A DNA stretch of 64,000 nucleotides from IMG/VR virus record IMGVR_UViG_3300032268_000832, positions 186,001 through 250,000 of that record, one strand, 5' to 3'. Shown here one piece after another: positions 9,134 through 57,649 of the stretch. The stretch is from a virus. The notes beneath the pieces are model-generated. The model saw only the letters and a list, made by a program, of their open reading frames with translations, made no database searches and had not been told where the DNA came from. Both the position numbers and the translations under genes were made by a program. Position 1 is the first letter of the stretch. Each line of letters begins with the position of its first letter.

Positions 9134-9164
9134 TTGACATGAGTCGAAACTTTTAGTATCTTTG
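9134..9164 (+). promoter_or_regulatory. Strong host-type promoter of tRNA array 0
   Basis: TTGACA (9134) and TATCTTTG (9157-9164), very similar to the promoters of the three leader-peptide modules. Confidence 0.75.
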
Positions 9165-9175
9165 CATATATTTAT

Positions 9176-9586
9176 TACAATACGTTCTTAAACAACATAT
9201 CTAAAAAGATGATTTCTGCAAACAGATATCTACAACTATGAGAAGGAGTAACTAGTCTCCATCGGACATTACTGACAACATTGAAATACCATGAGTCGCT
9301 ATTGTCACACGAAAGTGAAAAAAACTGGGAGTGTTGTGAGGACACTTTAAATCTACTACCGTGAGCACGTTAGTCACGTAAAACAAAGCGAACTATCATC
9401 TTGAGATAACTTATATGGTTAAAGAATCTTTTCAGCAAACTAAAACTCTATTTTTAATTTGATAAAAAACACAGAAAAAAAGAGATTCTGACCAAAAGTG
9501 GTAGAAGTTAAGTCTTTATCTGAAAGATTGCCTTAAAAAGCATTTTCTAGGATAGCTGGTTCATAGCCAGCCTACCGCACTAACAT
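9176..9586 (+). other. Long noncoding leader before the initiator tRNA
   Basis: About 400 bases with no convincing gene. It holds a mini-frame ATG-AGA-AGG-AGT-AAC-TAG at 9238 resembling the ATG-AGA starts of the other array leaders but ending at once in TAG, a TTCAGCAA element (9423-9489), and a 7-base loop hairpin GCTGG-TTCATAG-CCAGC near 9559 that looks like an isolated Met anticodon arm. No terminator with a T run was seen. Role unknown. Confidence 0.5.
9423..9489 (+). repeat. TTCAGCAA stem element, copy A
   Basis: AGAATCT then TTTCAGCAAACTAAAAC, an AT-rich interior, an A run, then AGATTCT completing a 7-bp stem. One of four such elements, all inside tRNA arrays. Confidence 0.55.
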
Positions 9587-9659
9587 TGCGGGGTAGAGCA
9601 GTAGGTAGCTCGCAAGGCTCATAACCTTGAGGTCGTCCGTTCGAGTCGGGCCCCCGCTA
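9587..9659 (+). tRNA. Initiator tRNA-fMet (CAT)
   Basis: Full cloverleaf: acceptor TGCGGGG/CCCCGCT, D arm GAGC/GCTC, anticodon arm CAAGG-CTCATAA-CCTTG, T arm GTCCG/CGGGC, A73. Positions 1 and 72 are a T-T mismatch, the initiator hallmark, and the body resembles bacterial fMet tRNA. CCA not encoded. Confidence 0.88.
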
Positions 9660-10597: not shown

Positions 10598-11275
10598 ATG
10601 GAAAAGATTAAACTTGAAATTCGTGGTGCAGAGGGCGGGACCGATGCAAAGCTATTGGTGTGTGAAATGAAAGACATTTACACCAAAGCAGCAAACATTA
10701 ATAACATCGGATGAATAACCGATGAAGAAAGAGATGGCTATGTTAGCATATGACTAACTGGTAAAAATGTCAAAAAAATCTTCGAAAACGAAATTGGTAA
10801 CCACAGGTGGCAAAGAGTCCCACCAACCGAACGTAAGGGAAGAGTCCACACTAGTTCAATAACAGTAGCACTTATGCAAGAAAACGATTACAAAGAAGTA
10901 GAGATACATCCAAGTGAATATCGTTTAGAAACAACTAGAGGGACTGGTCCAGGTGGGCAGCACCGCAACACTACTGACTCTACAGTAATTGTAACTCATG
11001 AAGCAACAGGTATTAAAGTTGTAAGAAACGGAAGATGCCAACATAAAAATAAAGAAGAAGCTCTTGTCGAATTAAAAAAACGAGTAAACGATTTTTATAG
11101 AAGCGGTCATGATAATGAAGCTAGTGAACAAAGAAAAGACCAAATCGGGAAGGGTGATAGAGGTGATAAACGAAGAACCTACAGAGTTAAAGATGGTGTT
11201 GTAATCGACCATATCACAGAAAAGACTGCAAATATAAAAGACATATACAGAGGTAAAATACAATTACTATCGTAA
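10598..11275 (+). CDS. RF1-like release factor with two in-frame UGA codons
   Basis: From ATG 10598 to TAA 11275 the frame encodes 225 residues if TGA at 10712 (codon 39) and 10751 (codon 52) are read. The product matches domains 2-4 of class I release factors: [43 protein letters not shown] with the catalytic GGQ, and QHKNKEEAL. The PPT tripeptide matches the RF1 type, which reads UAA and UAG, not UGA. Codon 39 aligns with a Trp conserved in RF1 (RRW), so UGA-to-Trp is the likely reading. The domain 1 part of RF1 is missing. Either expression depends on UGA readthrough or the gene is decaying. Confidence 0.75.
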
Positions 11276-13105: not shown

Positions 13106-13178
13106 GGTTCTATAGTATTAACGTGAATACGCCCGCCTCTAAAACGGAGAAATATCGGTTCGAGTCCGATTAGAACTA
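13106..13178 (+). tRNA. Amber-suppressor-like tRNA (anticodon CTA)
   Basis: 73 nt: acceptor GGTTCTA/TAGAACT (G1-U72 wobble), D stem GTAT/ATAC, T arm ATCGG-TTCGAGT-CCGAT, A73. The anticodon loop CTCTAAA gives anticodon CTA, reading UAG. The anticodon stem has three central pairs with C-A mismatches at both ends; the D loop lacks the usual GG. Amino acid identity cannot be read from the sequence. The next gene has UAG at codon 3. Confidence 0.7.
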
Positions 13179-13238
13179 CAAACACTTTACATTTTTTAGA
13201 AAAATGATATATTTATAAACAAAAAACAAATAGAACAA

Positions 13239-13589
13239 ATGACTTAGATTAACAATCAAAAATTAAGAGTTGTCACAAGACGTGACTTACCAATTTCCAC
13301 ACAAGCGGTGCAATCGGCACACGCAGCCATTGATTTTCAACATGACCACCCAGAAGTGGCATCACAATGGCAAACAAAATCAAATTATTTAGCATTATTA
13401 ACTGTCGCTGATGAAGAAGAGTTAATCAAATTGATTACCAAAGCTATCTTTATTGGTATCAAACACACTATTTTCCGTGAACCAGATTTGGGTAACGTGA
13501 TTACAGCAGTAGCCTTTGAACCAACAGACGCGGCTAAAAAACTTACCAGTTCATGTCCGTTATTAGGAAAGGAGGTTCAATATGCTTAA
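13239..13589 (+). CDS. Peptidyl-tRNA hydrolase 2-like protein, UAG at codon 3
   Basis: From ATG 13239 the frame reads ATG-ACT-TAG-ATT and then codes without interruption. The family-conserved N-terminal strand KLRVVTRRDLPISTQAVQ lies entirely before the first downstream GTG (13308), so starting there would delete an essential part. About 115 residues; VQSAHAAIDF and FREPDLGNVITAVAF match PTH2/PTRHD1-type enzymes, which free tRNA from peptidyl-tRNA. Full length needs UAG readthrough (a CTA tRNA is 61 bases upstream) or initiation at the ATT after the UAG. Confidence 0.75.
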
Positions 13590-13839
13590 TATTCAATCCA
13601 GAACAGAAATCATTTTCCATTTTAACAAAATGTCTTTACAAGACCCTAGTATACCTATGTGGGTAATCAAAGCCAAGGGTGAAACATATTATGTAGACCA
13701 CGTAGATATGGAATCTGGTGTAGGTTTTACTACCAAAGAAACACCAGACAACCCAAGTACAAAGGGTTCTATTAAATTCAAAGCTAAATTGAAAATTGAA
13801 AAAATAAACAATAGGGTAGTCGCAACGATTTACCCTTAA
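13582..13839 (+). CDS. Hypothetical protein, 85 aa
   Basis: 85 residues, beta-rich, starts MLNIQSRTEIIFHFNK and overlaps the PTH2 gene by 8 bases. An AGGAGG sequence lies 9 bases upstream, a rare Shine-Dalgarno-like match in this window. No family recognised. Confidence 0.6.
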   Translation: MLNIQSRTEIIFHFNKMSLQDPSIPMWVIKAKGETYYVDHVDMESGVGFTTKETPDNPSTKGSIKFKAKLKIEKINNRVVATIYP

Positions 13840-17637: not shown

Positions 17638-17662
17638 TTTTTGTTTTTTAAAAATAAAATTG

Positions 17663-17670
17663 TATCTTTG
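17663..17670 (+). promoter_or_regulatory. Host-type promoter for cca
   Basis: TATCTTTG five bases before the ATG, TTG at 17641. Confidence 0.65.
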
Positions 17671-17674
17671 CAAA

Positions 17675-18847
17675 ATGAAAACACAGATAAAACAAATACT
17701 TAGAGAAGGACTTACAATGGAAGAAAGAATTAAATTTGACTTCCAAATACCATCAGATATAATTGAAATCCAAAAGGTGTTCACCAAAAACGGATATAAA
17801 TTATATGTGGTTGGTGGAGCTGTGCGCGATGCCCTATTAGGAAAAACACCTAAGGATTTTGATTTAGCTACAGATGCTGTTCCTGACAAAGTAGAAGAAA
17901 TGATGCAAGATGCTGGGTTCAGAACCCTACCAACTGGTAAAGCTTTTGGTGTTATCAACGTATTCACTGACCAAGGAGAATATGAAGTAGCTACGTTTCG
18001 AAATGATATTGGTTCTGGTAGAAGACCAGACAGTGTTGAATTTACAAATATAGATGGTGATGTAAAAAGACGTGACCTTACAATCAACGCTTTGTTCTAT
18101 GATATAGACACAAAAGAAATAGTTGACCTTGTAGGTGGTGTAGACGACCTTAAAAACGGTGTTGTGAGAACTGTTGGTGCCCCAGAAGATAGATTTGGTG
18201 AAGATAGGCTTAGAATTCTAAGAGCGATTAGATTTGCTGGTAGATTTGGTTCTGATTTAGACCCAGCAACAGATATGGCATTACAAAAAGATGCAAGTCT
18301 TGAAGGTATTTCTGGTGAGCGTATTAGAGATGAGTTTATCAAAGGATTAATCTCAGCTAAGTCATTTAAAAAATACATGGAAATGTTAGATAAATATGAC
18401 TTATTCAAATGGGTGTTACCTAACATGTTATTGAATAAAAAATCATACATGAGAAACTCTGGTAAAGTTGACAATTACATTGTTGAATTGGCTAGTTTAT
18501 TAAAAGATAACGAAATTGATTTGTTAAGAAGAAAATTAAATGAATTGAAATACTCAGCAGACGAAATAAAAGCGATTGTGTTTTTAATTTCATTCTTAAA
18601 ATTGAGTGTTGATACCGCATACTTGTTGAAAAAAATGCAACAAACTGCTGGTGTTTCTGATAAACAAATTAGAGAATTTGGTGAGAAAGAAAACATACCA
18701 GAAAAATTGTTAAACGCTTTTGAACAATATAGACTTAGCGTTAGCGGACCAGAGGCTATGGAAAAATTTGATTTGAAACCAAGTCCTGAGTTGGGAAAAG
18801 CCATCCAAAAAATGGAAACAGCTAACTTTGAAAAATTATTAAAATAA
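17675..18847 (+). CDS. cca: CCA-adding tRNA nucleotidyltransferase
   Basis: 390 residues from ATG 17675. N-terminal tag MKTQIKQILREG, then a class II nucleotidyltransferase: LYVVGGAVRDALLG and DFDLATDA (catalytic aspartates) near 50-70, RRDLTINAL near 150, the RILRAIRFAGRFG segment near 190, then the helical tRNA-binding part. It adds or repairs the CCA end of tRNA, which fits the many tRNA genes here that lack encoded CCA. The tag suggests it may also be carried in the virion. Confidence 0.9.
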   Translation: MKTQIKQILREGLTMEERIKFDFQIPSDIIEIQKVFTKNGYKLYVVGGAVRDALLGKTPKDFDLATDAVPDKVEEMMQDAGFRTLPTGKAFGVINVFTDQGEYEVATFRNDIGSGRRPDSVEFTNIDGDVKRRDLTINALFYDIDTKEIVDLVGGVDDLKNGVVRTVGAPEDRFGEDRLRILRAIRFAGRFGSDLDPATDMALQKDASLEGISGERIRDEFIKGLISAKSFKKYMEMLDKYDLFKWVLPNMLLNKKSYMRNSGKVDNYIVELASLLKDNEIDLLRRKLNELKYSADEIKAIVFLISFLKLSVDTAYLLKKMQQTAGVSDKQIREFGEKENIPEKLLNAFEQYRLSVSGPEAMEKFDLKPSPELGKAIQKMETANFEKLLK

Positions 18848-22428: not shown

Positions 22429-22785
22429 ATGAAAGTATTTTTTATTGCTTTTTTAATGTTTTCTTTATCGATTAAAGCCCAAAAACTAAAGAATGAATTA
22501 TTTACGTTTAATGTTGATTATACAAACAAAGAGTTTATAGTTAGGGTTGGTGATATAGATGAAAATAAATCACAAGTTGAAGTTGAAATTAAGTGTTCTA
22601 AAATAATTCTAGACTATAAAAAGGAAAAACATTTTGTGGAAGTTTTTAATATAAAACAACATGTTAATAATAGCAATGTTTTTTTTGGTGGTAAATTGAT
22701 TGAAGGTGAATATGTTATAACGTTAACATATGTTGAAAATGGTAAAAAAATAAAAAAAATAGAAAAAAAATTAATAAAAACTTGA
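22429..22785 (+). CDS. Secreted hypothetical protein, 118 aa
   Basis: 118 residues from ATG 22429 with a signal peptide (MKVFFIAFLMFSLSIKAQ), then a beta-rich domain. Ends in TGA, one of only two TGA stops in the window; if UGA were read the product would gain five residues and stop at TAG. The stop lies inside the -33 element of the array 1 promoter. Confidence 0.7.
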   Translation: MKVFFIAFLMFSLSIKAQKLKNELFTFNVDYTNKEFIVRVGDIDENKSQVEVEIKCSKIILDYKKEKHFVEVFNIKQHVNNSNVFFGGKLIEGEYVITLTYVENGKKIKKIEKKLIKT

Positions 22786-22812
22786 CTTGTATTAAAATAG
22801 TTAGTATATTTG
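22782..22812 (+). promoter_or_regulatory. Promoter of tRNA array 1
   Basis: TTGAC (22782) and TATATTTG (22805-22812), nearly identical to the promoters at 51913 and 53512. A GATATATTTATAAAC element lies further down the leader at 22842. Confidence 0.85.
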
Positions 22813-22866: not shown

Positions 22867-22968
22867 ATGAGAACAATTAACATACATATGATATCGATTT
22901 CGAATTGGAGACGCAATAGTCACCAAATGTCGGGTATGTCTAATTGCCAAGGTGGGACTGAAGTATAA
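22867..22968 (+). CDS. Leader peptide of tRNA array 1 (attenuator)
   Basis: 33 codons from ATG to TAA, too short for ordinary gene callers. Residues 4-16 read INIHMISISNWRR and 17-26 NSHQMSGMSN: 21 of these 23 are Ile, Asn, His, Met, Ser, Trp or Arg, exactly the amino acids of the tRNAs that follow (Ser, His, Trp, Ile, Met, Asn, Arg). Codons include TCG, AGT, CGC, AGA, CAT, ATT and AAC, matching the anticodons present. GTCGGG within the frame (22929-22934) is complementary to the 5' arm of the terminator. Interpreted as a ribosome-stalling attenuator. Confidence 0.8.
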   Translation: MRTINIHMISISNWRRNSHQMSGMSNCQGGTEV

Positions 22969-22995
22969 TTCAGAAACACATATAACAATACACAA

Positions 22996-23027
22996 CCCGA
23001 CTAGTTAAAAGCTTAGTCGGGTTTTTT
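22996..23027 (+). terminator. Attenuator terminator of tRNA array 1
   Basis: CCCGACTA pairs with TAGTCGGG, followed by six T. Its 5' arm CCCGAC can pair instead with GTCGGG in the leader ORF. Confidence 0.9.
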
Positions 23028-23038
23028 ATTTTAAAACT

Positions 23039-23230
23039 ATGGGTGAATTAGTAAGAAAATTAGGAACTGAAAAAAGTGTCAACTTAGTTAAAGACTTTAA
23101 CCTAATAGTTGACAAGTACAGAAAAATAGCAGATGCCAGTGGATATCACGGAGAGCTAAAATTTCAAAAAGAAGGTGGGTTCACCGTAATATTTGTAGAT
23201 ATTAAAACGGACGATAATTTGGAGGAGTAA
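23039..23230 (+). CDS. Hypothetical protein, 63 aa
   Basis: 63 residues, starts MGELVRKLGTEKSVNLVKDF. First gene after the array 1 attenuator; its last 10 bases lie in the tRNA-Ser gene. No family recognised. Confidence 0.6.
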   Translation: MGELVRKLGTEKSVNLVKDFNLIVDKYRKIADASGYHGELKFQKEGGFTVIFVDIKTDDNLEE

Positions 23231-23308
23231 AGCGTAATGGTTGACCGCTCTAGTCTTGAAAACTAGTCTCGCGAAAGTGGGTTGCAGGTTCGAGTCCTGT
23301 CTCCTCCG
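23221..23308 (+). tRNA. tRNA-Ser (TGA)
   Basis: Acceptor GGAGGAG/CTCCTCC, anticodon arm CTAGT-CTTGAAA-ACTAG, long variable arm, T arm GCAGG/CCTGT, G73 as expected for Ser. Confidence 0.9.
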
Positions 23309-23366
23309 CAAAAATTTACACATGCGGTGAATAGTAAAAATTATCCGCACTTTTACAAAATGTAAT

Positions 23367-23375
23367 ATATTTATT
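23367..23375 (+). promoter_or_regulatory. ATATTTATT element
   Basis: Second-class element 3 bases before the endonuclease VII-like gene. Confidence 0.4.
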
Positions 23376-23378
23376 AGT

Positions 23379-23813
23379 ATGGAAATAAATATAAACGTTA
23401 AAAGGTGTTCCAAATGTCAAGAAGAAAAAAGTATTGATTTATTTGGTGTAAAAAATTATAATAAAGATGGTTTAAATCATTATTGTAAAGAATGTGAAAA
23501 TAATAGGAATAAGGTTAGATATCAAGACCCTATTCAAAAAGAAAAAATAAAGTATAATTCAATTTTAAGAAATTATGGTCTTACTAAAGAAGAATATTTA
23601 TTAAAATTAGATAAACAAGAACATAAATGTTCTATCTGTAGTGATGTTTTAAAAAATGATAAAAAAACACACGTAGACCATTGTCATTTGACTGGTGTTG
23701 TTAGAGATATTTTATGTGATAAATGTAATAAATTATTGGGTAACGTAAAAGAAGATGTTAATTACCTAAAAAATTTAATAAATTACATTGAAAAATATTC
23801 ACCGCAAAAATAA
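23379..23813 (+). CDS. Recombination endonuclease VII-like HNH nuclease
   Basis: 144 residues. N-terminal CxxC pairs (RCSKCQ, YCKECE), then YGLTKEEYLLKLDKQEHKC, the VDHCHLTGVVRDILCDKCN nuclease core and LGNVKED, the endonuclease VII/HNH pattern. Probably a homing-type enzyme set in the tRNA array. Flanked by GCGGTG hairpins on both sides, possibly insertion boundaries. Confidence 0.85.
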   Translation: MEININVKRCSKCQEEKSIDLFGVKNYNKDGLNHYCKECENNRNKVRYQDPIQKEKIKYNSILRNYGLTKEEYLLKLDKQEHKCSICSDVLKNDKKTHVDHCHLTGVVRDILCDKCNKLLGNVKEDVNYLKNLINYIEKYSPQK

Positions 23814-23830
23814 GGCGAATAGAAAAGATA

Positions 23831-23852
23831 ATCACCGCAAAAATGCGGTGAT
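23831..23852 (+). repeat. GCGGTGAT hairpin
   Basis: ATCACCGCA pairs perfectly with TGCGGTGAT; no T run. A related TGCGG...CCGCA pair lies before the nuclease gene near 23324-23350. Confidence 0.5.
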
Positions 23853-23866
23853 TGTAAATTAAACAT

Positions 23867-23939
23867 GGTGGCTATAGTGTAACGGTTAACACGCTAGATT
23901 GTGGTTCTGGAAATGGGAGTTCGATTCTCCTTAGTCACC
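23867..23939 (+). tRNA. tRNA-His (GTG)
   Basis: Encoded G-1 opposite C73, acceptor GTGGCTA/TAGTCAC, anticodon arm CTAGA-TTGTGGT-TCTGG, T arm GGGAG/CTCCT. All are His features. Confidence 0.9.
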
Positions 23940-23946
23940 CTTTTAT

Positions 23947-24018
23947 ACTTCGCTGGTGAAATGGCTATCATCTTGGTCTCCAAAACCAAGGTTTCAGGTT
24001 CGAGTCCTGAGCGTAGTG
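23947..24018 (+). tRNA. tRNA-Trp (CCA)
   Basis: Anticodon arm TTGGT-CTCCAAA-ACCAA, T arm TCAGG/CCTGA, acceptor ACTTCGC/GCGTAGT with one T-T mismatch, G73. The only Trp tRNA in the window; it would be the candidate reader if UGA is translated. Confidence 0.85.
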
Positions 24019-24027
24019 CTAAAACAT

Positions 24028-24100
24028 AGGCGTGTGGTGAAATTGGTTATCACGCAAGACTGATACTTTTGTATTTCGAGTTCGAGTCTCGACATGCCTA
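24028..24100 (+). tRNA. tRNA-Ile (GAT)
   Basis: Acceptor AGGCGTG/CATGCCT, anticodon arm CAAGA-CTGATAC-TTTTG, T arm TCGAG/CTCGA, A73, short variable loop. Confidence 0.88.
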
Positions 24101-24105
24101 CAAAC

Positions 24106-24189
24106 TGTGATGTGGATGAATGGTTTAGTCACCAGCCTGATACGCTGGGTGTTTATAACACAATGTGGGTTCGAGTCCCACCGTCACAA
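24106..24189 (+). tRNA. tRNA-Ile-type (GAT) with long variable arm
   Basis: Acceptor TGTGATG/CGTCACA, anticodon arm CCAGC-CTGATAC-GCTGG, variable arm GTGTT-TAT-AACAC (5-bp stem), T arm GTGGG/CCCAC, A73. A long arm is not expected for Ile. A normal Ile(GAT) tRNA is 5 bases upstream. Confidence 0.8.
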
Positions 24190-24191
24190 CT

Positions 24192-24425
24192 ATGAAAAGA
24201 CAATATAGTGAAAATGAAAAAGGATTGGTAGAAGCCATAGTTGGATTGTTCATTTTGCTTCCTAACCCACAATTGAAGGGTAAAGAACAAGAAATAATGA
24301 AAATTGCTTTTAAAATTCTGGACGAAATGTTAGATGAAGACTTTGAACCAGAAGAAAATGAAGATGAAGACGATGATGATGGATACGAAGATTACATCAA
24401 GTATATTGTTGAAAAACGTAAATAA
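24192..24425 (+). CDS. Hypothetical acidic protein, 77 aa
   Basis: 77 residues from ATG 24192 (MKRQYSENEKG); an upstream start would lie in the tRNA. The C-terminal half is rich in Asp/Glu. Ends one base before the next tRNA. Confidence 0.6.
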   Translation: MKRQYSENEKGLVEAIVGLFILLPNPQLKGKEQEIMKIAFKILDEMLDEDFEPEENEDEDDDDGYEDYIKYIVEKRK

Positions 24426-24499
24426 GGTCCTCTGGCGCAATTGGTTAGCGCAGCGCGCTCATAACGCGACGGTTTCGGGTTCGAGTCCCGAGGGGACCA
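24426..24499 (+). tRNA. tRNA-Met or tRNA-Ile2 (CAT)
   Basis: Acceptor GGTCCTC/GGGGACC, loop CTCATAA, T arm TCGGG/CCCGA, A73. Elongator Met versus lysidine-modified Ile2 cannot be decided by eye; the leader of this array contains both AUG and AUA codons. Confidence 0.85.
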
Positions 24500-24604
24500 C
24501 ACCCTATCAAATGGTGTAACCACGGGTAAAAACAGCAACGCTGGCGAATGGACCAGAGGCGCACCGTAATTGTGGTACTCGGTGTATTGATAAAAATATA
24601 AAAT
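24500..24604 (+). other. Structured noncoding spacer
   Basis: No gene. TATCAA near 24505 pairs with TTGATA near 24588, enclosing CACCG/CGGTG and CAGC/GCTG hairpins. May be a degenerate or unusual tRNA-like RNA. Confidence 0.35.
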
Positions 24605-24690
24605 TCTGGTTTGGCCGAGTGGACGATGGCAGCAGACTGTTAATCTGCTAGGGTACACCCTCAACGTAGGTTCGAATCCTACAGCCAGAG
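24605..24690 (+). tRNA. tRNA-Asn-type (GTT) with long variable arm
   Basis: Acceptor TCTGGTT/AGCCAGA, anticodon arm GCAGA-CTGTTAA-TCTGC, variable arm AGGG-TACA-CCCT, T arm GTAGG/CCTAC, G73. T1-A72 and G73 fit Asn, but the long arm and the D-arm GGCCGAGTGG look like Ser/Tyr tRNA. A normal Asn(GTT) tRNA lies at 25300. Confidence 0.8.
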
Positions 24691-24712
24691 CGAAAATTTT
24701 TTTGTTAATCTA

Positions 24713-24742
24713 TTGACTTTTTGTTCGAATTTATTATATTTA
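24713..24742 (+). promoter_or_regulatory. Host-type promoter for the HNH gene
   Basis: TTGAC (24713) and TATATTTA (24735-24742), 16 bases before the ATG. Confidence 0.6.
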
Positions 24743-24757
24743 TAATAAAAACAAATT

Positions 24758-25312
24758 ATGAAAGAAAAAATATTAGAATTAAGAAAAAAAGGTTTAAAAA
24801 TTGATGAAATTGTTAAAGAATTGGGTTGTGCTAAAAGCACCGTATCATATCACATTAACAATAATGGTTTAGGTGGTAAGGTTATAACTGACAGTTTAAT
24901 TTCTAAAATTAATGAGTATTATTTAACTCATAGTAAAGCTGAAACAGCTAAACATTTCGGGATTGGAGCTTCAACTGTAACTAAATATACTGAAAATAAA
25001 AGAGTCTATTTAAGCGAAGAAGAGAGGAAAGAAAAAGCTGTTAAAGCCGTTGTAAAAAGAAGACAAAAAGTCAAAGAGATGGCAGTTGAATACAAAGGCG
25101 GTTCATGTCAGAGATGTGGTTATAATAAATACATAGGTGCTTTAGAGTTTCACCATATGGACCCAAATGAAAAAGATTTTTTAATAAGCAGAAAAGGTCA
25201 TTGTACATCTTGGGAAAAAATAAAAAAAGAATTAGATAAATGTATTTTAGTTTGTGCTAATTGTCACAGAGAAGTACACGAAGAAGAAAGAAATAACAAG
25301 GGGCTGTCGTAG
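24758..25312 (+). CDS. HNH homing endonuclease with helix-turn-helix
   Basis: 184 residues. Helix-turn-helix segments (IDEIVKELGCAKSTVSYHI; AETAKHFGIGASTVTKY) occupy residues 15-85; the HNH core is C-terminal: SCQRCGY, LEFHHMDPNEKDF, CILVCANCHREVHEE. The TAG stop falls inside the following tRNA-Asn gene, so enzyme and tRNA overlap by 13 bases. Confidence 0.85.
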   Translation: MKEKILELRKKGLKIDEIVKELGCAKSTVSYHINNNGLGGKVITDSLISKINEYYLTHSKAETAKHFGIGASTVTKYTENKRVYLSEEERKEKAVKAVVKRRQKVKEMAVEYKGGSCQRCGYNKYIGALEFHHMDPNEKDFLISRKGHCTSWEKIKKELDKCILVCANCHREVHEEERNNKGLS

Positions 25313-25373
25313 CAGCGGTCTAATACGGAGGACTGTTAATCCTTTTACATGGGTTCGAATCCCATCGGCCCCG
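25300..25373 (+). tRNA. tRNA-Asn (GTT)
   Basis: Acceptor GGGGCTG/CGGCCCC, D stem CGTA/TACG, anticodon loop CTGTTAA, T arm ATGGG/CCCAT, G73. Confidence 0.9.
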
Positions 25374-25387
25374 CAAAATAAAAGAAG

Positions 25388-25540
25388 ATGGAAAAGACAA
25401 GTGAAGCTGATATGCAGCGTCTTTATGATTACTTGGATAAAATGGGTGTATCTTATACGGTAGACCGAAATCCAAGTCCAGAAAAGATTGCTAGAATCAA
25501 AGCACAAATTGAAAAGAACAAAAAAATAAGAATGTGTTAA
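25388..25540 (+). CDS. Hypothetical protein, 50 aa
   Basis: 50 residues from ATG 25388 (MEKTSEADMQRLYDYLDK) to TAA, helical and charged, between two tRNAs. Codon usage looks like the neighbouring genes. No family recognised. Confidence 0.5.
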   Translation: MEKTSEADMQRLYDYLDKMGVSYTVDRNPSPEKIARIKAQIEKNKKIRMC

Positions 25541-25640
25541 TGCTGATAAACTACAACAGCACCAGACGAAAAACTGGCGTGGAGCATGGGACTAGTTAAC
25601 CACCACAATTGTAGGAGAATACCCTACCACATTCACAAAT
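25541..25640 (+). other. Structured noncoding spacer
   Basis: No gene. Contains CCAG/CTGG and GTAGG/CCTAC hairpins, the latter with a 7-base loop like a degenerate T arm. Shares the ACAGCA...GACG/GGCG pattern with the spacer at 24500. Confidence 0.35.
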
Positions 25641-25710
25641 GCCGAGGCTTATAGGAAAAGAGCCATCCCTCATAAAGATGGTCAAGTCGGTTCGACTCCG
25701 ATACTCGGTA
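25641..25710 (+). tRNA. tRNA-Met-type (CAT)
   Basis: Acceptor GCCGAGG/ACTCGGT (one mismatch), D stem GCT/AGC, anticodon arm CATCC-CTCATAA-AGATG with a C-A mismatch, T arm GTCGG/CCGAT, A73. Elongator Met or Ile2. Confidence 0.75.
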
Positions 25711-25718
25711 CCAAAATT

Positions 25719-25791
25719 GGCTCTATCGTTCAACTGGATAGGACCTCGGTCTACGAAATCGAAAATACAGGTTCGAATCCTGTTAGAGTCA
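25719..25791 (+). tRNA. tRNA-Arg (ACG)
   Basis: Acceptor GGCTCTA/TAGAGTC, anticodon arm TCGGT-CTACGAA-ATCGA, T arm ACAGG/CCTGT, A73. Confidence 0.87.
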
Positions 25792-25840
25792 CAACATCAG
25801 TCAAATCTATAATTTATATGTATCATTTGGCTAACAATAT

Positions 25841-25913
25841 GCCTCCATAGCATAAATGGAAATGCAACATCCTTCTAAGATGTCCAATCGGGGTTCGAAT
25901 CCCTGTGGGGGTA
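25841..25913 (+). tRNA. tRNA-Arg (TCT)
   Basis: Acceptor GCCTCCA/TGGGGGT, anticodon arm ACATC-CTTCTAA-GATGT, T arm CGGGG/CCCTG, A73. Confidence 0.87.
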
Positions 25914-26117
25914 CAAATAAAATAGCAATCAAGGTTTGTTTCACCTTCAAGATATTCCTGAAAAGAAACTAGGTGTGTTGATAGGGGTAGCCTCCCAACA
26001 GTGACTGATTAAATTCAAGGTAGATACGGACTGGTACAGTGGTGACTTACACACGGAATTCCACTAATCCCTTTGTAGCCCGTCACGACCCAAGGGCGGG
26101 ATTGTTATTTTATTTAT
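25914..26117 (+). other. Noncoding region before tRNA-Ser
   Basis: About 200 bases without a gene. Contains a GTTTGTTTC...GAAACTAGG fold and, near 26078-26100, a CCCGTC/GGCGGG hairpin followed by a T-rich stretch, which may be a terminator. Confidence 0.4.
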
Positions 26118-26201
26118 GGAGAGTTGCCAGAGTGGTAATGGAGCGGATTGCTAATCCGTGGTCGTTAGTTCGGCCCATGGGTTCGAATCCCATACTCTCC
26201 A
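26118..26201 (+). tRNA. tRNA-Ser (GCT)
   Basis: Acceptor GGAGAGT/ACTCTCC, anticodon arm GCGGA-TTGCTAA-TCCGT, long variable arm, T arm ATGGG/CCCAT. Position 73 is A rather than the usual Ser G, followed by CCA in the DNA. Confidence 0.85.
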
Positions 26202-26225
26202 CCACGTCTTATTCATTATTTCTAG

Positions 26226-27761: not shown

Positions 27762-28700
27762 ATGAAAAAAGAAATAAGAACAATATTAAGAGAAGGTATG
27801 TTAAAGAATTCATTAGGGGTTGCGGTTTCAAGACCAGACCAAGTGCTTATCGTGATGCGTGGTATACCAGGCTCGGGTAAATCAACAAAAGCCAAAGAAC
27901 TAGTAGGTGAAGGAGTAATCCATTCAACTGATGCTGTTATAGAGTCACAAGGTGATTACAACAAATTCTTTCAATTAATGTTTGAATCTAAAGACTTTAC
28001 ACCATTGTCAAGAGCTCACTCTACCAATTTAAAAAACGTTGTTGGTTCGTTAAAAGAAGGTGTTTCACCAGTTATCCTAGATAACACAAACATCAAACAA
28101 AACGAATCAAAGGCCGCTATTAAGGCTGCTTTGGAAATGGGGTTGGCTGACAACAACATAAAGTTTGTGGATATAGGTACAGCTGGTCTTACAGCTGAGC
28201 AATTAGCTGAAAGAAACACTCATGGTGTACCGCTTGAAAAAATACAATCAATGATTGAATCACACAAGGGTCAAGGTCCATTAACGCTTAAAAGCGTTTT
28301 AGAATCGAAAGACATGTACAAAGAATCAAACATTTTGTATTCTGCTGTTGTATTGGATGGTGGGTCTAGAGCAGCTTTGTTGTCAAGAATTGAGGGTATG
28401 ATACCTGATGGTTGGAAAGTAATTGCGCACCACATGACTATAGTGTTTGGTAAACCAGTACCAAACCAAGAAGATTTAGGTAAAGAAGTTACTTTGTATG
28501 TTGAAGCTATAGGGATTAGCGATATGGCTATGGCTGTTAGGGTTGAAGGTTATCCATCAACCAATGCGATTCCACATATAACAATTGCGATAAACCCAGA
28601 TGGTGGAAAACCAGTGATGTCGAATGATATCACCAAATGGCAAAAAATAAAGAACTTTGCCATTAAGGGTAGAGTTACTGAAATTAAGAAAGGGTCGTAA
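27762..28700 (+). CDS. Polynucleotide kinase / 2H phosphodiesterase fusion (RNA repair)
   Basis: 312 residues. Tag MKKEIRTILREG, then a P-loop kinase domain (MRGIPGSGKSTKAKEL near 30; DNTNIK near 110) and a C-terminal 2H domain with two H-x-T motifs, HHMTIVFG and PHITIAI. This kinase plus cyclic phosphodiesterase pairing is the end-healing half of fungal tRNA ligase, preparing 5'-phosphate and opened 3' ends for joining. RNA ligases are encoded at 29888 and 35135, so a complete repair or splicing set is present. Confidence 0.8.
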   Translation: MKKEIRTILREGMLKNSLGVAVSRPDQVLIVMRGIPGSGKSTKAKELVGEGVIHSTDAVIESQGDYNKFFQLMFESKDFTPLSRAHSTNLKNVVGSLKEGVSPVILDNTNIKQNESKAAIKAALEMGLADNNIKFVDIGTAGLTAEQLAERNTHGVPLEKIQSMIESHKGQGPLTLKSVLESKDMYKESNILYSAVVLDGGSRAALLSRIEGMIPDGWKVIAHHMTIVFGKPVPNQEDLGKEVTLYVEAIGISDMAMAVRVEGYPSTNAIPHITIAINPDGGKPVMSNDITKWQKIKNFAIKGRVTEIKKGS

Positions 28701-29887: not shown

Positions 29888-31012
29888 ATGTTAAAAATAC
29901 AAAAATTTATAAAAGAAAACGGTTTTGAAAAAGCTGTTAAAGAGTTTCAATTAAAAACTCGTGAATACGAACACAAAGTGTTATTGAAATATGACCAATT
30001 AGTGTCACCAACTATTATGTCGAACATAGAAGTTCAAGAATGTAGAGGTCTTATCCTTGAAAAAGGTACATGGGATGTTATGTCGTTGGCTTTCACAAAA
30101 TTCTTCAATGCTGAAGAAGGAAACGCTGCTAAAATAGATTGGAACACAGCTCACGTTTTAGAGAAACTTGACGGTACTCTTATACAAGTGTATTGGGACT
30201 GGGTAAACGAAGAATGGTATGCTGGTACTACTGGTACAGCTGAGGGTGAGGGTGAAGTTAACAACAAAATGGGAACTACTTTTAACTCATTGTTTTGGGA
30301 CACTGTAACAAAACAATATGCGTTGAATACATGTATGTTCGACAAAAACCATGTATATGTGTTTGAGTTAACAACTCCATATAATATTGTTGTAAAACCA
30401 CACGGAGAATCATCAGCAACTTTGTTGACTGTTAGAAACCGTGTTACATTACAAGAGGTTTCTTGGAAAAACTTAACTATGATTGCAGAATCGTTAAGAG
30501 TACCATTGGTTAAAAGATTTGACTTGAATGCTAAAGATGTGGGTACTTTGTTACGTACATTTGAAGGTATGCCATGGTCAGAAGAAGGTTACGTTGTTGT
30601 AGACGCTAATTTTAACCGTATCAAGATAAAAAACCCAGCTTACGTTGCGGTTCACCACTTGAAAGGTAAAACAGCTGAACACAACATCATAACTATCGTT
30701 AAATCTAACGAGATAGAAGAATTCGCTTCAACTTTCCCAGAAAGAAAAGATGAATTGCTTAGACTTAAAGATAACTACGATAAATTAACTGACAAGTTAA
30801 ATGATGTTTGGGTTGAGTTAAGTGCTCGTAAACCAAAAAACATAACCAAAGAAGAAAAGAAAAGATACGCTGCGGCTGTATTTGAAGTTTGTGGTAAACA
30901 CGACTTAAAACAATTCACTGGATTGTATTTCGGATTGGTTGATGGTAAAGTTGGTTCCGTAGAAGACTTCATTGTAAACTACGATGACAAATTATTATAC
31001 AAAATGCTCTAA
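29888..31012 (+). CDS. T4 Rnl1-like RNA ligase
   Basis: 374 residues, the size of T4 RNA ligase 1. Adenylation motif I is LEKLDGTLIQV near residue 95 (nucleophilic Lys), motif III VFELTTPYNIVV near 160, motif IV SEEGYVVVD near 235 and motif V RIKIKNPAYVAVH near 250. Such ligases seal cleaved tRNA anticodon loops. Works logically with the kinase-phosphodiesterase at 27762. Confidence 0.88.
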   Translation: MLKIQKFIKENGFEKAVKEFQLKTREYEHKVLLKYDQLVSPTIMSNIEVQECRGLILEKGTWDVMSLAFTKFFNAEEGNAAKIDWNTAHVLEKLDGTLIQVYWDWVNEEWYAGTTGTAEGEGEVNNKMGTTFNSLFWDTVTKQYALNTCMFDKNHVYVFELTTPYNIVVKPHGESSATLLTVRNRVTLQEVSWKNLTMIAESLRVPLVKRFDLNAKDVGTLLRTFEGMPWSEEGYVVVDANFNRIKIKNPAYVAVHHLKGKTAEHNIITIVKSNEIEEFASTFPERKDELLRLKDNYDKLTDKLNDVWVELSARKPKNITKEEKKRYAAAVFEVCGKHDLKQFTGLYFGLVDGKVGSVEDFIVNYDDKLLYKML

Positions 31013-35134: not shown

Positions 35135-36187
35135 ATGAAAAAAATGATTAAATTTCCGTCTATCGAACAATTCAGAAGCGTTGTAGCTACTGTTCTTAGA
35201 AAATATAATTTTGTTGGTCTTGATGAGAATGGTGATGCGATTTACGACACCACAAAACCAAAACCAACGCTTACCTTCAAGGGCACTGTGAAACTTCACG
35301 GAACCAATGCTGGTGTTTCTTTCAAATACGGTTATGATAACACTAGTGAGTATTGGGTACAATCTCGTGAAAACATTATCACACCAGAAAAAGACAATGC
35401 TGGTTTTGCTTTCTTTGTTGAATCACATAAAGAAGCGTTTAAAAAATTTGCTAGTCAAATTGATTCGTTGGGGATGTTTGATGTCCGTCATAACATCGTT
35501 ACGATTTATGGTGAATGGGCTGGTGGTAACATTCAGAAGGGTGTTGGTATTTCAAATCTACCAAAATCATTCTTTATCTTTGGTGTTAAAGTAACTCCGA
35601 TTACTGAAACTGAAGAAGAAGCTAGACAAAAACCAGCTTATTGGATTCCTTCACACTTTTTGAAAAGTCCTGAGGATAACATTTACAATATCGAAGATTT
35701 CCAAACTTGGGAAATCGATATTGACTTTAACATGCCACAATTGGTTCAAAACAAATTGTCAGAACTTACACTAGCTGTTGAAGAAGAATGTCCAGTTGCT
35801 AAGGCTTTTGGGTTCTCTGGAATCGGTGAAGGTATTGTTTGGTCAACAACGCTTAACGGAAACGTACACCGCTTCAAGGTGAAGGGCGAACGCCACTCTA
35901 GTTCAAAGGTTAAAACACTTGCAGCTGTAGACACTGAAAAATTGGAATCAATCCAAAGCTTTGTTGAATACGCAGTAACTGAAAGTCGTTTCAATCAAGC
36001 ACTTGAAAATGTATTCCCTAACGAAGAACCAATTGAAAACAAAAAATTGGGTGATGTAATTCGTTGGGTTGTAAACGACGTAATCAAAGAGGAAATGGAC
36101 ACCATGACTGATAACAAAATCGAACCAAAAGATGTGAACAAATACATCTCTTCTAAGGTTAGAGATATGTTCTTTAAGTTGGTGTAA
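35135..36187 (+). CDS. Rnl2-family RNA ligase
   Basis: 350 residues. Motif I TVKLHGTNAGVSF near residue 53 (Lys nucleophile), EWAGGNIQ near 130, motif IV GEGIVWSTT near 230, motif V HRFKVKGERHSSSKV near 248, plus a helical C-terminal domain. Rnl2 enzymes seal nicked double-stranded RNA. A second ligase beside the Rnl1-like enzyme gives different substrate coverage. Confidence 0.88.
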   Translation: MKKMIKFPSIEQFRSVVATVLRKYNFVGLDENGDAIYDTTKPKPTLTFKGTVKLHGTNAGVSFKYGYDNTSEYWVQSRENIITPEKDNAGFAFFVESHKEAFKKFASQIDSLGMFDVRHNIVTIYGEWAGGNIQKGVGISNLPKSFFIFGVKVTPITETEEEARQKPAYWIPSHFLKSPEDNIYNIEDFQTWEIDIDFNMPQLVQNKLSELTLAVEEECPVAKAFGFSGIGEGIVWSTTLNGNVHRFKVKGERHSSSKVKTLAAVDTEKLESIQSFVEYAVTESRFNQALENVFPNEEPIENKKLGDVIRWVVNDVIKEEMDTMTDNKIEPKDVNKYISSKVRDMFFKLV

Positions 36188-49168: not shown

Positions 49169-50392
49169 ATGAGCAAACAACTAACACACGAGTTTCTAGT
49201 AGAAAATGGGTTAATACTTTTTGAAACCATAATTGGTTCTCAAGCATATGGTACCCAAACACCTACTAGTGATGTAGACAAAAAATTCGTATACATATTA
49301 CCTATGGATTATATCTTGGGTACTGGATATGTTGAACAAATAAATGTAAATAAAGACTACACAGGTTGGGAACTTAGACGTTTCCTAGAATTAATGGAAA
49401 CAAACAACCCAACGGTTCTAGAACTTTTAAACAGCCCAGGAGACTGTATAATCAGCAAACACCCTTTGTTTGACCTAATCCTTGCACATAAGGAGGATTT
49501 CATAACAAAACTATGTAAAAATAGCTTTGGTGGATACGCTAGACAACAAATTGTTAAAGCTAAAGGTCTTAACAAGAAACAAAACTGGGAAAAAGACAAA
49601 GTAACTAGAAAAGACTTGTTAGATTTCTGTTATGTTATTCAAGGTGATAAATCAATCCCATGGAGAGCGTGGAATGCTAACAAATATGATGAAAAATTTG
49701 TTGGTGCTGTGAATATCCCAAATGCGAGAGATACCTACGCTTTATTTTATGACAGCGTTGCTGAAATGCTTCATTCTGAAAATACTGATGAAGAACTTAG
49801 AGAGACTTATAAAGAAGCACTGAGAAAAGCTGGTAAATCAATGGGTATGGGTTATAAAGGACTTATCAATACTGGTCATGAAGATGAAGATGGTAAGATT
49901 AACTACGGTATCTCAAATCAATTACGTCTTTCTAGCGTACCTAAAGGTGAGAAAGTTATTGCAACAATAGTGTATAACAAAGATGGTTATTCAGAACATT
50001 GTAAAGACTATAAAGAGTATCAAGAATGGCTTGAAAACCGTAACGAAGCTCGTTATGTTGAAACACAAGAACATGGGCAAAGAATTGATGGTAAGAATAT
50101 GATGCACTGTATGCGTCTTATCAGAATGGCAACAGAAATTGGTCAAGGTAAAGGGATTCAAGTAAGAAGAGAAGATAGAGAATATCTATTATCAATTCGT
50201 AGAGGTGAACTAGACTTAGATAAATTAATCGAAGAAGCGGATAATGCAATTAAAAATATGGATGAAGTTTTTGATAATTCCACTCTACCTGACAGAGTCC
50301 CTAAGGGTTTGGTAAATGCTCTTTTAGTTACTATCAGAAGAGAATTTTATGATTTGCCAATATCGGCAACAACACTTGAAAAAAGACTTTAA
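49169..50392 (+). CDS. DNA polymerase beta-superfamily nucleotidyltransferase
   Basis: 407 residues. ETIIGSQAYGTQTPTSDVDKK near residue 20 is the GS...SDxD active-site pattern of stand-alone nucleotidyltransferases (COG3541-like). Long helical C-terminal region. Target unknown; related proteins modify nucleic acids or proteins. Confidence 0.75.
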   Translation: MSKQLTHEFLVENGLILFETIIGSQAYGTQTPTSDVDKKFVYILPMDYILGTGYVEQINVNKDYTGWELRRFLELMETNNPTVLELLNSPGDCIISKHPLFDLILAHKEDFITKLCKNSFGGYARQQIVKAKGLNKKQNWEKDKVTRKDLLDFCYVIQGDKSIPWRAWNANKYDEKFVGAVNIPNARDTYALFYDSVAEMLHSENTDEELRETYKEALRKAGKSMGMGYKGLINTGHEDEDGKINYGISNQLRLSSVPKGEKVIATIVYNKDGYSEHCKDYKEYQEWLENRNEARYVETQEHGQRIDGKNMMHCMRLIRMATEIGQGKGIQVRREDREYLLSIRRGELDLDKLIEEADNAIKNMDEVFDNSTLPDRVPKGLVNALLVTIRREFYDLPISATTLEKRL

Positions 50393-51912: not shown

Positions 51913-51943
51913 TTGACTTGTATTAAAACAGTTCGTATATTTG
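51913..51943 (+). promoter_or_regulatory. Promoter of tRNA array 2
   Basis: TTGAC (51913) and TATATTTG (51936-51943), within a ~40-base stretch almost identical to the array 3 promoter. Confidence 0.85.
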
Positions 51944-51982: not shown

Positions 51983-52063
51983 ATGAGAAATACTTTTAAC
52001 ATATTAGTCCTTTTAAGCTTATGCTTGCTAGTGGTAAACACAGCAGGGCTTTGCGTATGTTAA
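51983..52063 (+). CDS. Leader peptide of tRNA array 2 (attenuator)
   Basis: 26 codons from ATG to TAA. Residues 8-18 are LVLLSLCLLVV and 23-26 are LCVC, so Leu, Val and Cys dominate, the amino acids of every tRNA that follows (Cys, Val, Leu, Leu, Val, Leu). The Leu codons used are TTA, TTG, CTT and CTA, covering the three Leu anticodons present (TAA, TAG, AAG). GGGCTTT at 52046-52052 is fully complementary to AAAGCCC at 52096-52102, which overlaps the terminator's 5' arm. It could also be mistaken for a membrane peptide. Confidence 0.8.
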   Translation: MRNTFNILVLLSLCLLVVNTAGLCVC

Positions 52064-52095: not shown

Positions 52096-52125
52096 AAAGC
52101 CCATCCTAACCAGATGGGTTTTTTT
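52096..52125 (+). terminator. Attenuator terminator of tRNA array 2
   Basis: CCCATC pairs with GATGGG across CTAACCA, followed by seven T. Confidence 0.9.
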
Positions 52126-52138
52126 ATTGAATAATAAT

Positions 52139-52219
52139 GCCGTGGTTCCTGAGTGGTCAAAGGGGGCGGACTGCAAATCCGCTGCGAAAGCTTCGTGGGT
52201 TCGAATCCCTCTCACGGCT
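52139..52219 (+). tRNA. tRNA-Cys-type (GCA) with long variable arm
   Basis: Acceptor GCCGTGG/TCACGGC, anticodon arm GCGGA-CTGCAAA-TCCGC, variable arm CGAA-AGC-TTCG, T arm with one T-T mismatch, discriminator T as in Cys tRNA. The D arm (CCTGAGTGGTCAAAGGGG) and long arm strongly resemble tRNA-Tyr. A normal Cys tRNA lies at 13846. Confidence 0.8.
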
Positions 52220-52240
52220 CAATGATAAACTGAAAAAAAA

Positions 52241-52621
52241 ATGGAAGGTAAAGATTACTTAGTTGGTTCATTTAGAACCAAAAACGGTGCTCAAGTTAAC
52301 GTTTATAGAAATATTAAAAATATGGAAAAGAATGAAATTAAAAAGGACTTGTATAAGTCAAAGAATCTGGCTAAATTTAGCCACTATGTAAACGGAAACC
52401 TGTATTATAAGGTAGACGTGATGGACGGAACTTATCAGTTCCCAATAAAAACAGTACAGAAATCATATGTAATGGATACTAGACAAGTTGAAAAGATTCC
52501 AACACTAGTATTAGCAGAAGATTTAGGAACAACAAGTTTTGACGCTGAAATAAAGGGTTCTGAATTGATTAGATGGATTGAAAAAGCTATCGATAATGAA
52601 GATTTTATAAAAGTAGGGTAA
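52241..52621 (+). CDS. Hypothetical protein, 126 aa
   Basis: 126 residues, beta-rich, starts MEGKDYLVGSFRTKNGAQ, inside tRNA array 2. No family recognised. Confidence 0.65.
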   Translation: MEGKDYLVGSFRTKNGAQVNVYRNIKNMEKNEIKKDLYKSKNLAKFSHYVNGNLYYKVDVMDGTYQFPIKTVQKSYVMDTRQVEKIPTLVLAEDLGTTSFDAEIKGSELIRWIEKAIDNEDFIKVG

Positions 52622-52634
52622 AACCTACTTAAAT

Positions 52635-52720
52635 GGGACTATGGTGTAGTTGGTTAAACATCCCATCCTTACAAGATGGAGACGAGAAGTATAACGCTGG
52701 TTCGAATCCAGCTAGTCCTA
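52635..52720 (+). tRNA. tRNA-Val-type (TAC) with long variable region
   Basis: Acceptor GGGACTA/TAGTCCT, anticodon arm CCATC-CTTACAA-GATGG, a 16-base variable region, T arm GCTGG/CCAGC, A73 followed by CCA in the DNA. A normal Val(TAC) tRNA is at 52916. Confidence 0.78.
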
Positions 52721-52731
52721 CCAAAATAAAT

Positions 52732-52818
52732 GGCCTTGTGGCGAAACTGGCAGTACGCACTAGACTTAAAATCTAGGGTCCCGAAGGGGGCGTGTGGGTT
52801 CGACTCCCACCAAGGCTA
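52732..52818 (+). tRNA. tRNA-Leu (TAA)
   Basis: Acceptor GGCCTTG/CAAGGCT, anticodon arm CTAGA-CTTAAAA-TCTAG, long variable arm, T arm GTGGG/CCCAC, A73. Confidence 0.9.
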
Positions 52819-52826
52819 CACAATAT

Positions 52827-52909
52827 GCGGATATGGTGGAATGGTAGACACACTAGCCTTAGAAGCTAGGGCTCATTTGGGCATGCGAGTTCGAGTCTCG
52901 CTATCCGTA
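52827..52909 (+). tRNA. tRNA-Leu (TAG)
   Basis: Acceptor GCGGATA/TATCCGT, anticodon arm CTAGC-CTTAGAA-GCTAG, long variable arm, T arm GCGAG/CTCGC, A73. Confidence 0.9.
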
Positions 52910-52915
52910 CAAATC

Positions 52916-52990
52916 GCATCTGTAACTCAGTGGTTCAGTAGTGCTTCCTTTACACGGAAGAAGTCGGGGGTTCGAATCCCTCCAGATGCA
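52916..52990 (+). tRNA. tRNA-Val (TAC)
   Basis: Acceptor GCATCTG/CAGATGC, anticodon arm CTTCC-TTTACAC-GGAAG, T arm GGGGG/CCCTC, A73, short variable loop. Confidence 0.9.
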
Positions 52991-52995
52991 CTAAA

Positions 52996-53081
52996 AGATA
53001 GTTTCAGCAAACAAAAACTGGTTAAAAATTCACACTTAAAATGCGAACGAAGCGGTTCAAATCCGCAAAATATAACTATCT
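52996..53081 (+). repeat. TTCAGCAA stem element, copy C, with tRNA-like interior
   Basis: AGATAGT-TTCAGCAAACAAAAACTGG begins it and ACTATCT closes it. Inside are a possible anticodon arm TCACA-CTTAAAA-TGCGA (TAA) and a T arm GCGG-TTCAAAT-CCGC, but the T arm is separated from the closing strand by extra bases. Either a degenerate Leu(TAA) tRNA or part of the element. Confidence 0.5.
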
Positions 53082-53088
53082 TGTTTTT

Positions 53089-53172
53089 GGCCGAGTGGCG
53101 TAATTGGTAGCCGCGCCAGTCTAAGAAGCTGGTTCTCGAAAGGGAGTGTGGGTTCGAGTCCCACCTTGGTCA
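53089..53172 (+). tRNA. tRNA-Leu (AAG)
   Basis: Acceptor GGCCGAG/CTTGGTC, anticodon arm CCAGT-CTAAGAA-GCTGG, long variable arm, T arm GTGGG/CCCAC, A73. Confidence 0.87.
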
Positions 53173-53189
53173 CAAATTGAAATATCAAC

Positions 53190-53511: not shown

Positions 53512-53542
53512 TTGACTTGTATTAAAACAGTTCGTATCTTTG
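53512..53542 (+). promoter_or_regulatory. Promoter of tRNA array 3
   Basis: TTGAC (53512) and TATCTTTG (53535-53542). Downstream leader contains CATATTTATAAACAAATACAAAAA like array 1 (shared in part). Confidence 0.85.
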
Positions 53543-53623: not shown

Positions 53624-53713
53624 ATGAGAACTTTAACTAACATATTTGATTTCGCATTTTTTGCAGCCGAGGAGGATTACTCTTTCGGAAGGTCAAACAC
53701 TGTCATAAGTTAA
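53624..53713 (+). CDS. Leader peptide of tRNA array 3 (attenuator)
   Basis: 29 codons from ATG to TAA. Residues 8-18 are FDFAFFAAEED: all eleven are Phe, Asp, Ala or Glu, precisely the tRNAs that follow (Phe, Glu, Glu, Asp, Ala). AGGTCA near the end of the frame (53690-53695) is complementary to TGACCT (53744-53749) in the terminator 5' arm and loop. Same design as at 22867 and 51983. Confidence 0.82.
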   Translation: MRTLTNIFDFAFFAAEEDYSFGRSNTVIS

Positions 53714-53739: not shown

Positions 53740-53768
53740 AGTCTGACCTAATAAGTCAGACTTTTTTT
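53740..53768 (+). terminator. Attenuator terminator of tRNA array 3
   Basis: AGTCTGAC pairs with GTCAGACT across CTAATAA, then seven T. Confidence 0.92.
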
Positions 53769-53783: not shown

Positions 53784-53856
53784 GGTTCTGTAGCTCAGTT
53801 GGTAGAGCACTAGATTGAAGCTCTAGGTGTCGTGGGTTCGAGTCCCACTGGAACCA
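53784..53856 (+). tRNA. tRNA-Phe (GAA)
   Basis: Acceptor GGTTCTG/TGGAACC, anticodon arm CTAGA-TTGAAGC-TCTAG, T arm GTGGG/CCCAC, A73. Confidence 0.9.
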
Positions 53857-53865
53857 CAAAAAAAT

Positions 53866-53940
53866 GGCCCCGTCTTCTAAACGGAATAGGAAGCCACCCT
53901 TTCAAGGTGTGTAATGCGAGTTCGAGTCTCGTCAGGGCTA
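53866..53940 (+). tRNA. tRNA-Glu (TTC), copy 1
   Basis: Acceptor GGCCCCG/CAGGGCT with one C-A mismatch, loop CTTTCAA, T arm GCGAG/CTCGT, A73. Confidence 0.85.
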
Positions 53941-53977
53941 CAATCTGGTTAAGATTCCAGTAATCAAAAATCTAAAT

Positions 53978-54050
53978 GGTCTATTCGTCTAGTCGGTCAG
54001 GACGTGCCCCTTTCACGGGTAAAACACGGGTTCGAATCCCGTATAGACTA
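53978..54050 (+). tRNA. tRNA-Glu (TTC), copy 2
   Basis: Acceptor GGTCTAT/ATAGACT, loop CTTTCAC, T arm ACGGG/CCCGT, A73. Different body from copy 1. TCTGGTAA motifs lie in the spacers around this and the next two tRNAs. Confidence 0.87.
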
Positions 54051-54059
54051 CAATAAAAA

Positions 54060-54131
54060 GGTCCTATCGTTCATCGGCTAGGATGCCTCCCTGTCACGGA
54101 GGTGAGGAGGGTTCGATTCCCTCTAGGACCG
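54060..54131 (+). tRNA. tRNA-Asp (GTC)
   Basis: Acceptor GGTCCTA/TAGGACC, anticodon arm CCTCC-CTGTCAC-GGAGG, T arm GAGGG/CCCTC, G73. Confidence 0.92.
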
Positions 54132-54215
54132 CTGGTAACATCTGGTAATTTTAATACCAGTAAAAACCATTAAAAACAGGGATTATTAGTTTTATCTGGT
54201 AATGTCTGGTAATTT

Positions 54216-54287
54216 GGGGTCATAGCTCAACGGCTGAGCGCTTCCCTTGCACGGAAGAGGATGTGGGTTCGAATCCCATTGGCTCCA
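54216..54287 (+). tRNA. tRNA-Ala (TGC)
   Basis: Acceptor GGGGTCA/TGGCTCC with G3-U70, the Ala identity pair; anticodon arm CTTCC-CTTGCAC-GGAAG; A73. Confidence 0.92.
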
Positions 54288-54319
54288 CTAATTAGTTTCT
54301 ATCTTTTTAATTTTTAAAG

Positions 54320-57617: not shown

Positions 57618-57649
57618 CATTGTAATTTTAAATAAACATCGTAGAGTGT

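Follow-up and report, generated by a model that had tools for sequence, protein, structure and literature searches.

The window analysed here comprises 64 kb, bases 186,001-250,000 of a 306,463-base IMG/VR phage record that contains 40 tRNA matches; beyond the window, reading of the record was limited to stretches around tRNA loci. A tmRNA is present in the window, and the promoters, located by motif scan, are of the Bacteroidota type, TTG-N20-TATNTTTG. One of them, TTG-N20-TATATTTG (22782..22812, + strand, like all the features of the units described below), precedes a 33-codon ORF, MRTINIHMISISNWRRNSHQMSGMSNCQGGTEV (22867..22968), that is conserved in relatives. The ORF lies between this promoter and an intrinsic terminator, predicted by folding, with the 5' arm ACCCGACTA, the 3' arm TAGTCGGG and a subsequent T run (22994..23023), directly 5' of tRNA array 1. 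A 63-aa ORF without any Pfam family match (23039..23230) separates the terminator from the first tRNA. The array itself (23221..26204) carries 11 tRNAs with small ORFs interspersed, in the order Ser(TGA), His, Trp, two Ile(GAT), CAT, two Asn(GTT), Arg(ACG), Arg(TCT) and Ser(GCT), which agrees with the content listed in the initial annotation.

That annotation had also proposed that the peptide mirrors the array, and the count is confirmed: residues 4-26 are all Ile, Asn, His, Met, Ser, Trp or Arg save Q20 and G23, which gives 21 cognate residues of 23. The binomial tail for such a match is 1e-9 with the amino-acid frequencies of the long ORFs of the window, and when the 64 kb were read in six frames for the amino-acid set of array 1, leader 1 was the single 23-residue stretch at this level. 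Codons 4-19 (22876..22923), consisting exclusively of codons for these seven amino acids, constitute the putative sensor, delimited by composition and by the predicted range in which a stall would free the antiterminator. The presumed antiterminator strand, GTCGGGT (22929..22935), is located within the ORF at codons 21-23 and is suggested by folding and covariation. The GTCGGG complement to the terminator arm noted earlier proved to be one base longer, with a match of 7 nt, GTCGGGT/ACCCGAC.

The same phage contains four such leader and array units, three within the window and one 1 kb past it, and all four are ordered alike: promoter, short ORF, intrinsic terminator, tRNAs. In the second unit, a promoter found by motif scan (51913..51943) precedes leader ORF 2, MRNTFNILVLLSLCLLVVNTAGLCVC (51983..52063), whose homologues were aligned. 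Folding and covariation point to GGGCTTT (52046..52052) as its antiterminator strand, and folding predicts its terminator at 52098..52123. The peptide reads ...LVLLSLCLLVV... ahead of Cys Val Leu Leu Val Leu (52139..53173). The third unit has its promoter, from the same scan, at 53512..53542, leader ORF 3, MRTLTNIFDFAFFAAEEDYSFGRSNTVIS, at 53624..53713, and an antiterminator strand, AGGTCA (53690..53695), and a terminator (53740..53766), both predicted by folding. Here ...FDFAFFAAEED... stands ahead of Phe Glu Glu Asp Ala (53784..54288), where the first Glu tRNA, at 53866, was called SeC(tca) by ARAGORN and is more likely Glu(TTC), judging by the register of its anticodon stem. Leader 4, outside the window at G000:C1:251079, shows the same features as leaders 1-3, including the promoter motif, and its peptide, MKTQTTYQTQYQPKGGKP..., is followed by an array for Pro Lys Lys Pro Gly Gln Tyr Thr. 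Provided that the CAT tRNA in array 1 stands for Met, arrays 1-4 jointly cover all 20 amino acids. The cognate runs of the four leaders amount to 21/23, 10/11, 11/11 and 17/17, but since their boundaries were set by eye, it is the permutation test described below that bears the weight.

At 9134-9587 and 57587-57769 of the window, as well as at 1500-2440 of the contig L005, promoters are followed by a long, apparently non-coding RNA before the tRNAs, and a recognisable leader ORF is absent from these three stretches. Genes resembling tRNAs, with an anticodon arm seemingly closed by a tetraloop (TTCG, GAGG) and therefore without a usable anticodon, occur at 58432-58508 of the window and at 2362-2438 of L005, with similar unassigned calls in L011, L053 and L062. 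A motif, TTCAGCAA, recurs in imperfect hairpins 3' of tRNA genes (window 9430, 10491, 53002 and 58302; L004 2465). A tRNA with the anticodon CTA is situated just 5' of a PTH2-type peptidyl-tRNA hydrolase gene that has TAG at codon 3 (13106-13590). The class-I release factor gene at 10601-11275 (PCRF and RF-1 domains) contains two in-frame TGA codons, which possibly serve autoregulatory read-through.

Relatives were gathered by a promoter-pattern scan and by searches with two neighbouring proteins. Many phage contigs hold diverged versions of the four leaders; in more distant phages, the array composition differs and the leader differs correspondingly. For instance, ERREERE stands ahead of Glu Arg in L069, SWAPSYEPSSAYES ahead of Tyr Pro Ser Trp Glu Glu Ala in L080, and IIRLQQLQLLILR ahead of Arg Leu Leu Gln Ile Leu in L095. 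The published huge-phage genomes LR745206, LR756504, LR756501 and LR756502 share this layout: QQIQQQQ precedes Gln Gln Gln in the first (L112), AIVEIAVIGGAEEGV precedes Glu Ala Ile Val Gly Glu in the second (L114) and TPAPAVAFRRGTGTGTGT precedes Arg Thr Val Ala Gly Pro in the third (L120), and further matched leaders are found in LR756502 and LR756500. The layout is also shared by Tunturi_5, a cultured phage of an Acidobacteriota host, whose three main arrays jointly cover 20 amino acids. Clearly matched leaders are present at two of them. One, LCLSSYCLSSSLSLS, precedes Leu Cys Leu Leu Tyr Leu Ser Ser Ser; the other is the ORF gp308 (L135 12874-13023; PP885688.1 251573-251722), annotated as a hypothetical protein, which from its sequence looks like a tRNA-array leader peptide. 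At the third array, the matched stretch starts well within a longer ORF. A few leaders include amino acids missing from their array as detected. Matched leaders were absent from the examined regions of LR756511, LR745208, GAP32 and XbC2, a count of four phages that leaves out Lak-C1 and XacN1 (the XacN1 region being without tRNA), and no relatives were found in bacterial genomes with the array-2 protein as query. Overall, leaders change with their arrays among relatives, as expected of a ribosome-stalling attenuator.

To quantify this match, we selected leaders by their terminator and antiterminator, leaving composition aside, and clustered them into 32 types; since the clustering was automatic, by shared 3-mers, a few of these types may be distantly related. 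Nine ORFs were excluded by hand for being out of frame, lying within other genes or lacking leader architecture. At codons 8-19, leaders and their own arrays agree at 292 of 381 residues, compared to 104 with arrays permuted (sd 13.1, z=14); the maximum in 200,000 permutations was 171, and none reached 292. A chance match is rejected on the strength of this permutation and of the uniqueness of leader 1 in the window. Counted in codons from the antiterminator, 0.83-0.96 of the residues are cognate at positions -10 to -4; the fraction then declines to about 0.27, the baseline of the permutations, at -1, which is roughly the point at which the front of a ribosome (12-nt leading edge) would start covering the antiterminator. 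The match lies at the level of amino acids: isoacceptor-specific codon use found no clear support above background, with 16 TCN vs 9 AGY serine codons where the array holds a TCN reader only, and 3 CGN vs 3 AGR arginine codons where it holds a CGN reader only.

A complement to the terminator 5' arm of at least 7 nt is present in the ORF of 23 of the 32 leaders vs 2.4 expected from codon shuffles, a figure somewhat inflated by the selection of ORFs for the longest complement. The covariation is independent of this selection. In the leader-1 family, 90% of cells are paired, a level reached by none of 500 shuffles, vs 46-49% when the pairing is slid by one, and four of the seven pairs have changed on both sides. 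In the leader-2 family, the corresponding values are 92% vs 55-58%, and three pairs covary. In L013, one central G-C pair has become A-U jointly in the antiterminator, the 5' arm and the 3' arm. The covariation expected of an attenuator is hence observed in both families, though pairing is weak in some leaders, namely in L134 and in the second unit of L138.

Folding of leaders 1-4 predicts energies of -15.5 to -23.2 kcal/mol for the antiterminator state and of -9.9 to -16.0 kcal/mol for the terminators. Before synthesis of the 3' arm, the modelled probability of the antiterminator is about 1 for ribosomes stalled up to codon 18-19 and about 0 for stalls from codon 20-21 on. The terminator probabilities modelled for leaders 1-3, computed with an arm out of register, were disregarded. 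The cognate runs of these leaders end near residues 18-19. In both the folding model and the antiterminator-aligned match, the cognate codons are placed where a stalled ribosome would leave the antiterminator free, in line with the attenuator reading. The antiterminator is also predicted to pair upstream, at 0.69 vs 0.46 (sd 0.04) in shuffled sequences, although not strongly in every leader; this pairing would be the counterpart of the 1:2 hairpin in attenuators of the trp type.

Selection acts differently on the two portions of the peptide. Sensor dN/dS is 0.17 for leader 1 and 0.19 for leader 3, vs 0.49 and 0.98 for the tails of these two families, and serine codons swap between TCG and AGC with Ser kept. 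The sensor codons are, by this measure, under purifying selection, and the low values suggest that the leader ORFs are translated. Stronger amino-acid selection on the sensor than on the tail had likewise been predicted for an attenuator.

Collectively, the sequence comparisons and folding models indicate that the arrangement is real, recurrent and highly specific, and that it would work like a trp/his-type attenuator while controlling tRNA arrays. The ribosome-stalling attenuator put forward in the initial annotation is supported, as its four predictions accessible without bench work all held. Each array is very probably an operon under ribosome-mediated transcription attenuation, which a shortage of cognate charged tRNA would switch on. 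RNA polymerase would start at the promoter and transcribe the short leader ORF, then the intrinsic terminator. By default, the antiterminator strand would pair onto the upstream sensor-coding region or lie under the moving ribosome, the terminator hairpin would form and the tRNAs would not be made. When charged tRNAs of the array are scarce, the ribosome would stall within the cognate codons (4-19 in leader 1) and block the upstream pairing, so the antiterminator would stay free and capture the terminator 5' arm, allowing the polymerase to read on into the tRNA genes. Each leader would thus sense a shortage of any one among several tRNAs, and its answer would be production of the entire array. 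Points that count against this reading are the lack of a clear isoacceptor preference in codon choice, the ribosome-free fold of leader 1 described below, the weak pairing in some leaders and the leader residues missing from their arrays. The data establish the matched codons, the place and covariation of the pairing, the terminators and the purifying selection; from these we infer that ribosomes stall, that polymerase reads through, that a 1:2 pairing is the default and what triggers the switch. The trigger is most likely loss of host tRNA during infection, through host tRNA-cutting defences or genome breakdown.

It is unlikely, yet deserves serious consideration, that the same attenuator responds to amino-acid starvation, i.e. 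to uncharged tRNA, instead of the physical loss of tRNA. Starvation is what classical attenuators sense, and the significant match at the amino-acid level, with none at the isoacceptor level, would suit it. However, what the attenuator would switch on are tRNA genes instead of genes for biosynthesis or synthetases, and extra tRNA would not relieve amino-acid starvation; furthermore, up to 11 amino acids are mixed in one leader, in keeping with a signal of general shortage. RNA-repair genes are likewise present in the phage: alongside a CCA-adding enzyme, the window encodes two RNA ligases, a kinase/phosphodiesterase (CPD) and an RlaP-like protein (17660-18844, 27762-28697, 29888-31009, 35135-36184, 49169-50389), which fits with a phage exposed to tRNA damage. 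Host tRNA loss should therefore be regarded as a presumed trigger, with amino-acid starvation as its rival.

The direction of the switch could also be reversed, so that stalling favours termination and array transcription accompanies an ample tRNA supply. Indeed, in the thermodynamic model, leader 1 RNA without a ribosome favours the antiterminator for as long as the 3' arm is missing (P=1.0), so the default-off state of this leader would need the kinetics of folding or the passage of a ribosome. Nevertheless, modelled stalls in the sensor free the antiterminator and the cognate codons end where this effect ends, making reversed logic quite improbable. The leader ORFs might instead encode functional small proteins of incidental composition, as their conservation within families and the annotation of gp308 as a protein could suggest; with 32 unrelated leader types matching their own arrays and tails that vary freely, we find this hard to believe. 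Still less credible is a translation-independent, T-box-like binding of uncharged tRNA by the leader RNA. It would account for a terminator/antiterminator switch ahead of translation-related genes, but T-box RF00230, with its specifier loop and T-box bulge, has no match in the window, where tRNA and tmRNA are the only Rfam families at the gathering threshold, the peptide is under purifying selection that includes the Ser-preserving TCG to AGC switches, and there are many in-frame cognate codons instead of one specifier.

Among known systems, the closest to the proposed tRNA-array attenuators are those of amino-acid operons (trp, his, leu, thr, ilv and pheA; also pheST). The trp/his type shares with them a short leader ORF rich in regulatory codons, an intrinsic terminator and a mutually exclusive antiterminator, and perhaps also the 1:2 protector pairing. 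In contrast to these attenuators, which control enzyme genes for biosynthesis or synthetases, the phage leaders control tRNA arrays, comprise up to 11 amino acids each with several leaders dividing the amino acids per genome, and are phage-encoded, in hosts of the Bacteroidota type and in Acidobacteriota. T-box riboswitches (Rfam RF00230) have in common a terminator/antiterminator decision tied to the state of tRNA, but they lack the leader peptide present in the phage units. Phage tRNA clusters directed against tRNA-cleaving defences (PMC10264068, PMC11555353) share the phage tRNA sets and tRNA loss as the likely pressure; these papers treat tRNA function, and a sensor controlling expression, as proposed here, is not their subject. 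Attenuation or a leader peptide is not mentioned in PMC10264068, nor attenuation or a leader in Al-Shayeb 2020 or the Tunturi paper. No earlier report of phage tRNA-array attenuation was found in the literature searched, which left most subscription journals outside.

The purpose of large phage tRNA sets has been debated for decades. If a sensor turns such a set on at shortage, the purpose of the set follows. Whether these units form a widespread viral surveillance circuit appears evenly balanced to us: huge phages would divide the 20 amino acids among a few leader-guarded tRNA operons, each leader detecting the loss of any tRNA of its group from host defences or breakdown, and would replace lost tRNAs on demand. 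The cultured pair Tunturi_5 / Tunturiibacter makes attenuation testable now. If true, ribosome-mediated attenuation would extend to tRNA genes and to viruses, and, as each leader would list the tRNAs that its operon replaces, the pressure of tRNA loss on a phage could be read from its sequence.
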